Positions 5,196-39,159 of a DNA stretch of 64,000 bases are shown here, piece after piece. Location: assembly GCF_000022205.1 (NCBI RefSeq), contig NC_012029.1, positions 248,001 through 312,000 on the forward strand. Reading direction: 5' to 3'. The stretch is from Halorubrum lacusprofundi ATCC 49239 (lineage in GTDB: Archaea; Halobacteriota; Halobacteria; Halobacteriales; Haloferacaceae). Positions within the stretch are counted from its first letter, which is position 1. Every line of letters starts with the position of its first letter. Under the pieces are notes generated by a model. It had not been told where the DNA came from. It ran no database searches and saw nothing but the letters and a program-made list of their open reading frames with translations. A program made the translations under genes and the position numbers.

Positions 5196-5848
5196 TGTGC
5201 GGCGGCCGCGGCACCCGCCTCGGCGGCGAGACGGAGAAGCCCCTCCGAGAGATCACGGGGCGGCCGATGGTCGACCGCGTGCTCGACGCGCTCGTCGAGA
5301 GCCGGATCGAGACGACCCATACAATCGTCTCTCCGCACGCGACGCGTACGCGGGAGCGCCTCGCTGCGCGGGCGAACGATTCCCCGTCGCTGTCGATAGT
5401 CGACGCGCCGGGGAACGGCTACGTCGCCGACCTGCAGTACGCGATGGGAACTGTCGGCGCGGGCGGAGCGCCCCTCCTGACGGTCGCCGCTGACCTCCCG
5501 CTTTTGGACGGCGCGGCGGTGAACGCGGTTCTCGACGCGGCCCGCACCGCCGACGGCGACTCGCTCACCGTCTGTGTACCGGCGGCCCGCAAGCGCGAAC
5601 TGGGCGTCAGCGCGGACGCGACGACCGAGATCGACGGTCGCGAGGTCGTTCCGGCCGGGATCAACGTCGTGGGCGGGAGCGACACATCCGAACGGGACGA
5701 CGGCGAGGATTCGACCGCCGACCACGGCGGCGCCGTCCACCTCACCGACGACGCCCGACTCGCCGTCAACGTCAACTACCCGTCGGACGTGCGGACCGCA
5801 GAGCGGCTACTGAACAGCGATTCAACGGGATACCACACCGACCAATGA
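5180..5848 (+). CDS. cobY: GTP:adenosylcobinamide-phosphate guanylyltransferase CobY
   Basis: The archaeal replacement for bacterial CobU, transferring GMP from GTP to adenosylcobinamide phosphate. The 222-residue protein starts at a GTG inside the cobS coding region. Its N-terminal nucleotidyltransferase motif MCGGRGTRLGGETEKPL (residues 6-22) is the MobA/CobY-type GTP site, and TVAADLPLLD near residue 100 supplies the metal-binding acidic residues. A 30-residue acidic, low-complexity stretch near the C-terminus is probably a haloarchaeal addition. The stop overlaps cobD by 4 nt. Confidence 0.9.
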   Translation: MDALLMCGGRGTRLGGETEKPLREITGRPMVDRVLDALVESRIETTHTIVSPHATRTRERLAARANDSPSLSIVDAPGNGYVADLQYAMGTVGAGGAPLLTVAADLPLLDGAAVNAVLDAARTADGDSLTVCVPAARKRELGVSADATTEIDGREVVPAGINVVGGSDTSERDDGEDSTADHGGAVHLTDDARLAVNVNYPSDVRTAERLLNSDSTGYHTDQ

Positions 5849-38079: not shown

Positions 38080-38886
38080 ATGAACGCCGTCACGCTCGGT
38101 CCCGCCGGCACGTACTCGCACCGTGCGGCGCGGGCCGTCGCCGCCGAGGTGTCGTTCCGCGAGTCGGTCACCGCCATCGTCGACGCCGTCGCGGCCGGCG
38201 AGTTCGAGCGCGGGGTCGTCCCCATCGAAAACAGCATCGAGGGCTCCGTCACGGAGAGTCTCGACGCCTTGGCCGACTACGACGTCTCGGTCACCCGCGA
38301 GATCGTCACCCCGATCCGACACGCCCTCCTCGCGCAGGGACCGGAGTTCGAGGTCGTCGCCAGCCACTCGCAGGCGCTCGCGCAGTGTCGCAACTGGCTC
38401 GAAGAGCACTACCCGAACGCGGGACTCGAAGCGGTCGCGTCCACGGCTCGCGGGGTCGAGCGCGCCCGCGAGGACGCCCGGGTCGCCGGGATCGGGCATC
38501 CGGACAACGCCGGCGACGATCTGGAAATTCTCGCCGAAGACATCCAGGACCGCACCTCCAACGCGACTCGCTTCCTCGTCGTGGCGCCCGAGTCCGCACG
38601 GTCCGACGCCGGTGGGAAGACGACCCTGATCGTCTACCCGAACGCGAACTACCCCGGTCTGCTGCTGGAACTCTTGGAAGCGTTCGCCGACCGCAACCTC
38701 AACCTCTCGCGGATCGAGTCGCGCCCGAGCGGCGAGCGCCTCGGCGACTACCTGTTTCACTTCGACGTCGACGCCGGGCTCTACGAGGAGCACATGGCGA
38801 AGGCGGTCGAGGATGTCGAGGCGATCGCCGACAACGGCTGGGTGCGCGTGCTCGGGTCGTACGACACCGAACATGTGTTAGAATGA
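38080..38886 (+). CDS. pheA: Prephenate dehydratase
   Basis: Converts prephenate to phenylpyruvate in phenylalanine synthesis. The 268-residue protein starts with the family pattern AVTLGPAGTYSHRAA; the segment VPIENSIEGSVTESLD (about 48-63) and TSNATRFLVVAPE (about 163-175) are further catalytic-domain signatures. A C-terminal ACT domain (about 180-265) carries NLNLSRIESRPSG, the phenylalanine-binding ESRP motif, so feedback inhibition is expected. No chorismate mutase domain is fused. Confidence 0.94.
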   Translation: MNAVTLGPAGTYSHRAARAVAAEVSFRESVTAIVDAVAAGEFERGVVPIENSIEGSVTESLDALADYDVSVTREIVTPIRHALLAQGPEFEVVASHSQALAQCRNWLEEHYPNAGLEAVASTARGVERAREDARVAGIGHPDNAGDDLEILAEDIQDRTSNATRFLVVAPESARSDAGGKTTLIVYPNANYPGLLLELLEAFADRNLNLSRIESRPSGERLGDYLFHFDVDAGLYEEHMAKAVEDVEAIADNGWVRVLGSYDTEHVLE

Positions 38887-39159
38887 CACTCACCTCGGCG
38901 ACACCGCAAGGAGCGACCAACGTGAGTGACTGAGGCGCGTGGTTCGAGAGAGCGAAGCTCTCTCGGTATCGCCGGAAATCGGAAACTTCCGGCTAGCAGT
39001 CAGAATCCGACGGATTCTGACGATATCACGAGACGCCAAAGGCGTCTCGAACGAAGGACACCTCAGCGGCGCTTCTCACCGCGTCGCCAGTCGCGATCGC
39101 TTATAAATAGACGATCGCGTCGTCACCCGATTGAGACCTGATCGAACGCCGACACGCGT
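38887..39159. other. 273-nt gap between convergent pheA and lhr, filled with perfect hairpins
   Basis: No gene with a credible composition is seen. It holds four consecutive perfect inverted repeats (38945-39049, listed separately), plus a further 7-bp pair CACTCAC/GTGAGTG at 38887-38893 and 38922-38928. The remainder to 39159 is ordinary spacer with a small AT-rich run (CTTATAAATAGACG, about 39100-39113). Confidence 0.7.
38945..39049. repeat. Row of four perfect short hairpins
   Basis: Hairpin 1, 38945-38965: 9-bp stem CGAGAGAGC, loop GAA. Hairpin 2, 38971-38993: 7-bp stem GCCGGAA, loop of 9. Hairpin 3, 38999-39021: 10-bp stem GTCAGAATCC, loop GAC. Hairpin 4, 39029-39049: 9-bp stem CGAGACGCC, loop AAA. 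The stems differ in sequence but are evenly spaced (starts 26, 28 and 30 nt apart). No T-run follows. Confidence 0.85.

Follow-up and report, generated by a model that had tools for sequence, protein, structure and literature searches.

A four-hairpin array between pheA and lhr of Halorubrum lacusprofundi belongs to a dispersed palindromic repeat whose arms are probably maintained by template switching

The pheA-lhr gap

The window analysed in this study is the whole 64,000-nucleotide stretch of contig NC_012029.1 of Halorubrum lacusprofundi ATCC 49239 (positions 248,001 to 312,000), and all coordinates below refer to it unless another sequence is named. The gap between two convergent genes of the window contains four hairpins and an additional inverted pair, as follows:

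38080-38886, plus strand: pheA, convergent with lhr
38887-38893 with 38922-38928: additional 7-bp pair, in the element remnant that flanks the W domain described below
38945-38953 with 38957-38965: hairpin A, 9 bp, perfect, loop GAA
38971-38977 with 38987-38993: hairpin B, 7 bp, perfect, 9-nt loop, two decayed pairs inside
38999-39008 with 39012-39021: hairpin C, 10 bp, perfect, loop GAC
39029-39037 with 39041-39049: hairpin D, 9 bp, perfect, loop AAA
39160-42078, minus strand: lhr, convergent with pheA

The four perfect stems (9, 7, 10 and 9 bp) and the extra 7-bp pair were found at the positions given in an earlier note on this DNA; in hairpin C the palindrome extends to 11 bp about a single central base. 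No T-run is present in the pheA-lhr gap, which agrees with the previous remark that the array is not a standard intrinsic terminator, in which a hairpin is followed by a T-run. The hairpin total of the window was slightly over the first-order Markov expectation (112 stems of at least 7 bp vs 66-93 expected; 10 stems of at least 9 bp vs 6-9 expected), and lone hairpins of 7-9 bp are frequent in the window, as a chance cluster of hairpins in GC-rich DNA would suppose. However, the cluster of four is exceptional. When the 64-kb window was simulated 60 times with a second-order Markov model, no 105-nt span held more than three stems of at least 7 bp or more than two of at least 9 bp, against four and three observed; the observed count was never attained, and the array recurs across the genus Halorubrum. 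Chance clustering, which retains practically no probability, is already refuted, and the four-hairpin observation is confirmed as genuine and beyond chance. Comparison of the whole window with Rfam returned no matches.

The W domain and the larger element

The four-hairpin array corresponds to W, a domain of a Halorubrum repeat that is non-coding, palindromic and about 250 bp long and that is present in the window as a truncated copy. The parts of this copy in the window are the following:

38887-38938, minus strand: element remnant on the 3' side of W in the sense direction, recognised by similarity to other copies
38939-39054, minus strand: W domain, 116 bp, delimited by homologous matches in relatives and a 19-copy alignment
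39055-39080, minus strand: element remnant on the 5' side of W, from sequence comparison by eye
39100-39107, minus strand: TTTATAAG box, kept in nearly all copies

The sense strand of the larger element at the window is the minus strand, with W antisense (minus). Read on the plus strand, W consists of GTGGTTCGA, four hairpins with invariant linkers, and CGAACGA. W was found by matching in 43 of 52 Halorubrum genomes, and its borders are marked by matches in relatives that begin at query positions 1-3 and end at 119. In 19 copies, W measures 114-118 bp and ends in GTTCGA/TCGAAC or similar. The alignment of these copies, from which L259 was left out as a chance match, has a mean column identity of 85%; the linkers GTGGTTCGA, CGTCATCGCC, GGCTAGCAGTCAGA, TTCTGACGACATC and CGAACGA are almost constant, and entire stems are exchanged, with a few interchangeable versions of each. 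The arms found elsewhere are GAGAGAGC, GAAACGGC or GAGACGCC in hairpin A, GCCGGAAATC, GCCAGAAATC, GCCGGAAGTC and others in hairpin B, TCAGAATCC or TCAGAACGC in hairpin C, and GAGACGCC, AAAGGCGC or CGAAAATC in hairpin D. The four stems had been described as mutually unlike, and within the array they are, but each recurs at the matching position of W elsewhere as one of these versions. The B-C hairpin pair is doubled in loci L384, L389 and L395 (by eye).

The larger element shows a conserved spine with paired arms, of which there are at least three (P1, P2 and P3). In the sense direction, a complete copy carries a TTTATAA box, followed about 21 nt on by GGTGAACACCTCCAAAGCCCCAGCCGCG..., the long arm P1 closed by ...CGCGGCTGCCCCTTTGAGTCCC, a C-rich spacer, CCTCACGCCTCCCCAGCCTCG, hairpin P2, CTCCCTCG and arm P3; the 3' end, ...GCGCGCCACCG, can pair with the element start. 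The TATA-like box lies about 28 nt ahead of a constant GGTGAAC start in complete copies. W is an optional part of the element and sits in the P1 loop, at one scaffold site in most copies (by eye); no clean pair with W present and absent at one orthologous site was found. In many copies the TTTATAA box and the 5' end are tandemly duplicated in 54-57-bp units, and additional hairpin blocks occur at several points of the element. In L206 (G000:C2:464242-469339) and further copies, up to five such units were seen. L008 (about 1690-1790) and L206 contain another block of four hairpins, about 97 nt long and with the layout GTCG-H1-TGCC-H2-GCTGT-H3-TTGC-H4-CCCT, which was observed by eye in both orientations, at several sites of the larger element and also in two-hairpin forms. 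Some copies run on to inverted GATCGATRRCGGGAGT-like ends, which lie about 420-490 nt apart in the long copies L012, L020, L021, L028, L029, L117 and L120.

The window copy retains the TTTATAA box and the GGTGA start, has W where the P1 loop would lie and is without P1, P2 and P3. Its 5' remnant ends in GGTGAG (39075-39080), which resembles the GGTGAAC start of complete copies, and the spacing from the TTTATAAG box (39100-39107) to the GGTGA start is about as usual; this box may be either TATA-like or an element end. In a fold of the minus strand, CTGAGG (38930-38935) is able to pair with CCTCAG (39061-39066). A covariance model of the 3' half of the element (R2), which superseded a model lacking P2 (R1), gave no match in 38887-39107 of the window.

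Dispersal in the genome, the genus and beyond

A dispersed haloarchaeal hairpin element had been among the earlier suggestions, and this one was borne out by genome-wide matches, by the occurrence of the element in all 35 sampled Halorubrum genomes and by the wide occurrence of W. A whole-genome search for the array had also been proposed; positions 38890-39150 matched seven places of the own genome. The array recurs with 87-93% identity in two of these copies, and others have it within a longer repeat. The longer repeat as query gave at least 93 matches in the own genome, and a second larger copy gave at least 52 (40 candidates scored in each search).

R2 yielded 69 matches in the own genome at E <= 0.001, every one on contig 2, the main replicon, which makes up 2.735 of 3.693 Mb (replicons of 2,735,295, 525,943 and 431,338 bp). 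The secondary replicons, 26% of the genome, held 0 of the 69 copies, an outcome with a chance of about 1e-9 under even placement.

In a class-wide sample of 292 genomes, all 35 Halorubrum genomes contained the element, which was also matched in named Halorubrum species. The other 38 of the 73 matching genomes in this sample belong to non-Halorubrum genera, with weaker matches. Exact pattern search of viral sequences returned no match, and one of 72,556 plasmid records had a match. The match in this lone record (L374; NZ_CP053942.1, pHAR01 of Halorubrum salinarum) covers 58% of the query, is 78% identical and has a YeeE/YedE gene on one side and a convergent rhodanese gene on the other. Rfam comparison of four element loci returned only one tRNA and a sub-threshold CRISPR repeat. 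No account of the element was found in the openly licensed papers searched, and the repeat family is large and apparently undescribed. A TnpB guide RNA or IS605 end was considered as a separate candidate and rejected, since clear element stretches occur in only 3 of 27 tnpB loci.

Genomic setting and orthologous sites

The setting was scored for 60 of the 69 copies using a simple codon-based gene caller. Convergent genes flank 26 copies, the two tandem arrangements 18 and 11, and divergent genes 5. By comparison, the 156 remaining pairs of neighbours in the same stretches divide into 29 convergent, 91 tandem and 36 divergent (Fisher p 0.0004 for the convergent excess and 0.012 for the divergent deficit). 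A weak predicted gene is overlapped by 2 of the 60 copies. The convergent excess would suit a 3'-end element, with copies between convergent genes stopping transcription both ways or protecting mRNA ends, and a hairpin terminated 59% of transcripts in the Haloferax volcanii experiments reported in the cited part of PMC7237163. However, the excess is equally expected of copies that merely avoid genes and promoters, the window array has no T-run, and the element is absent at pheA and at lhr in over half of the relatives. A function at 3' ends, such as the bidirectional termination zone suggested earlier, is conceivable but unlikely.

Comparison of flanking genes gave 37 orthologous pairs; six in which the gap is smaller on the relative's side were inspected, and five of these were aligned. 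L196 is occupied in the present genome and its orthologue L356 (Halorubrum salsamenti) is empty; likewise, L187 is occupied and L302 (Halobellus captivus) is empty. L206 and L218 share the element; L206 alone has two additional hairpin blocks and a tandem of five 5' units, the relative's L218 having a single 5' unit. Orthologous sites are thus occupied or empty between species, and hairpin blocks are gained inside the element. The empty site L356 (about 5324-5440) carries a pair of TTTATAA boxes, inverted in order and separated by about 22 nt. Because they are present at an empty site, TTTATAA boxes may mark the ends of the element or form an independent small repeat instead of being promoters.

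These presence and absence pairs and the blocks gained at L206 would be expected of a mobile element of the MITE, SMR or PATE kind, moved by a transposase in trans, with the palindromes as recognition sites and with W and the hairpin blocks as nested inserts. The GATCGATRRCGGGAGT-like inverted repeats at the ends of some long copies fit as well, and nested small repeats are described for Haloquadratum in the cited part of PMC3119063. On the other hand, no target duplication was seen by eye and no transposase-bearing version was found; the scarcity of the element at tnpB loci, its absence from the secondary replicons and the single scaffold site of W in most copies also speak against mobility of this kind, which we regard as possible but doubtful.

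Exchange at the pheA and lhr junctions

The neighbours of pheA and lhr differ between the present genome and its relatives. A gene that we take to be cysS, from its C-terminus, lies within 1.5 kb of pheA in 20 of 29 relatives at the pheA locus. At the lhr locus, lhr has the gene N within 1.5 kb in 4 of 29 relatives and pheA adjoins lhr in none of the 29. The element occurs 3' of pheA in 12 of 29 relatives, antisense every time (the L090 copy 1.2 kb off); on the 3' side of lhr it occurs in 13 of 29 relatives, in lhr sense every time. In the own genome, the window array separates pheA and lhr, which face each other. A further element copy, oriented as expected, lies 29 kb away (315.8-316.1 kb in the genome) and separates cysS and N, which likewise face each other. 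Both swapped junctions carry the element, which fits an exchange between cysS-element-pheA and lhr-element-N. Copies probably recombine with each other, and pheA-element-lhr and cysS-element-N would be partner-swapped versions of the relatives' junctions; the present positions would call for one more event, for example a reinsertion or an inversion. Changes of gene order in Halorubrum are thus likely to be caused by the element.

Retention of pairing

The earlier idea that something keeps the structure was upheld, as pairing persists through complete changes of the stems in relatives. In the A4 set (41 sequences), 87.8% of cells were paired, compared with 74.5% after shuffling and 34-44% with the partners slid. 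The corresponding values were 90.7% vs 72.9% shuffled for 63 distinct rows of the own genome and 95.1% vs 76.9% shuffled for 82 distinct rows of named genomes, two alignments that were fitted by a model to its own structure and lean towards structure. The observed paired-cell fraction was reached by 0 of 500 shuffles. In the W arms, 636 of 665 pairs are Watson-Crick. Other copies have fixed linkers, swapped stems and retained pairing, a pattern that resembles RNA covariation.

Strand test of the stems

Read on one strand, a G-C or A-U pair hit by one transition becomes either G-U, which RNA tolerates, or A-C, which it does not. The counts were as follows:

P2 and P3 columns: 57 G-U, 56 A-C, 155 other, 2851 Watson-Crick
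W arms: 9 G-U, 10 A-C, 10 other, 636 Watson-Crick
P1 arms (109 distinct arm pairs): 15 G-U, 20 A-C, 10 other, 1562 Watson-Crick
P1 arms without position 1: 13 G-U, 9 A-C
Archaeal SRP RNA control: 42 G-U, 2 A-C, 9 other, 2497 Watson-Crick
26 tRNAs: 40 G-U, 0 A-C

The SRP control covers 30 of 51 matching Halorubrum genomes and those Rfam pairs with a Watson-Crick majority, and the tRNA finder is itself biased against A-C. The 57:56 count is partly alignment noise because of its 155 other mismatches, and the W and P1 counts are less affected. An earlier P1 count with loose offsets gave 18:47, in the opposite direction, and was superseded by 15:20. To the contrary, the pairs chosen by RNAalifold for the element gave 36 G-U and 12 A-C, a count rejected as a test because the program picks pairs tolerant of G-U. 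The control outcome depends on the restriction to majority Watson-Crick pairs, with all Rfam-listed SRP pairs giving 371:173 and a single-sequence fold 86:62; neither count was used because many of these pairs fail here (641 other mismatches in the all-pair count). A one-mismatch hairpin scan was too sparse, with 7 G-U and 5 A-C in the larger element and none in SRP. An energy-based comparison of the strands, in which the antisense strand folds better, was dropped because mononucleotide shuffles behave likewise and the difference reflects base composition.

A structured RNA had been offered as one explanation, and the stems do not bear it out, since G-U equals A-C in them, unlike in SRP RNA and tRNA. 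In its fuller form, the complete copy would be a TATA-driven RNA gene of about 250 nt and the window copy a decayed one. The near-constant distance of the TATA-like box ahead of GGTGAAC, the strong covariation, stable folds (z -7.3, -5.6 and -7.8) and the almost exclusively intergenic copies are in favour of such a gene. Parity in three counts, the TTTATAA pair at an empty site, the lack of an Rfam match in the window and the four element loci, and loops that flip freely make it improbable.

Flipped loops and template switching

Three-nucleotide loops and their reverse complements are both common in the element regions (TTC 25 and GAA 18, TCC 7 and GGA 7, GTA 8 and TAC 6), and both forms are present in 9 of 17 multi-member arm families. 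In W, whose flanks fix the orientation, both forms occur in 6 of 12 arm alleles; hairpin A with the arm GAGAGAGC, for instance, has the loops AAA (3), GAA (3), TTT (1) and TTC (2). Template switching between inverted repeats yields homogenised arms and inverted spacers, according to the cited parts of PMC8604942 and PMC8794818.

The parity of G-U and A-C and the two-way loops are better accommodated by template switching in DNA than by RNA selection. Template switching between palindrome arms is the best-supported process that we infer from these sequences. A polymerase would switch template inside the palindrome at DNA replication (quasi-palindrome correction) and rewrite one arm from the other, thereby maintaining complementarity; it would sometimes flip the loop and would leave no G-U excess. 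A self-correcting palindrome would account for stems that are unlike in sequence but like in design, with RNA selection not needed. Gene conversion from another copy could likewise replace both arms together, but alone it would not explain loop flips between unchanged flanks. We therefore consider it probable that the window holds the W domain of a truncated dispersed repeat, with arms kept by template switching and with copies that recombine.

Implications

Perfect covariation is commonly read as proof of functional RNA. Palindrome correction at the DNA level accounts for the structure described here better than a functional RNA does, and strong covariation without strand asymmetry and with flipped loops provides a natural test of template switching imitating RNA selection. 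This calls for caution when RNA motifs are sought in high-GC archaea. With dozens of comparable palindromes in each genome, the family also makes palindrome correction measurable in archaea. A wider proposal, speculative and rather less likely to be right than wrong, is that genus-wide self-correcting palindromes confined to the main replicon mimic RNA covariation without RNA and, as recombination partners, reshuffle gene neighbourhoods. If true, each copy rewrites its own arms, flips loops, and gains and swaps hairpin blocks, and the absence of copies from the secondary replicons would point to a replicon-level role over plain selfish spread.

Comparison with known systems

REP/BIME and ERIC sequences of bacteria are dispersed, modular, intergenic palindromic repeats present in tens to hundreds of copies per genome. 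The element differs from them in being archaeal and longer, with several stems and wholesale stem exchange. MITEs have terminal inverted repeats that match a transposon, together with a target duplication; here, inverted ends occur in some long copies only, and no duplication was seen by eye.

Template-switch hairpins in the cited parts of PMC8794818 and PMC8604942 share arm homogenisation, multiple simultaneous compensatory changes and inverted loops with the present case; theirs lie in rRNA genes and yeast coding genes, whereas ours lie in a dispersed non-coding archaeal repeat.

The following comparisons draw on the portions of PMC3119063 that deal with SMRs and PATEs. SMR-A of Haloquadratum walsbyi is about 110 bp long, has inverted-repeat ends, is described there without a transposase and reaches up to 54 copies per genome; whole units of it enter the palindromes of other elements, and the target is not duplicated. 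W resembles SMR-A in length (114-118 bp in 19 copies), in terminal inverted repeats (GTTCGA/TCGAAC) and in having no transposase, and both lie within palindromes of a larger repeat. Identity within an SMR type commonly exceeds 95%, whereas the mean column identity of W is 85%; SMRs are seen as separate insertions, whereas W, with its freely variable stems, is an optional domain whose site is fixed in most copies. PATEs are like the element in being short, non-coding, palindrome-bearing, heterogeneous and numerous, but their near-terminal palindromes match IS605-type transposon ends, whereas most tnpB loci here (all but 3 of 27) are without clear element stretches. SMRs and PATEs, as portrayed in those portions, are the nearest described elements, and membership is claimed for neither.
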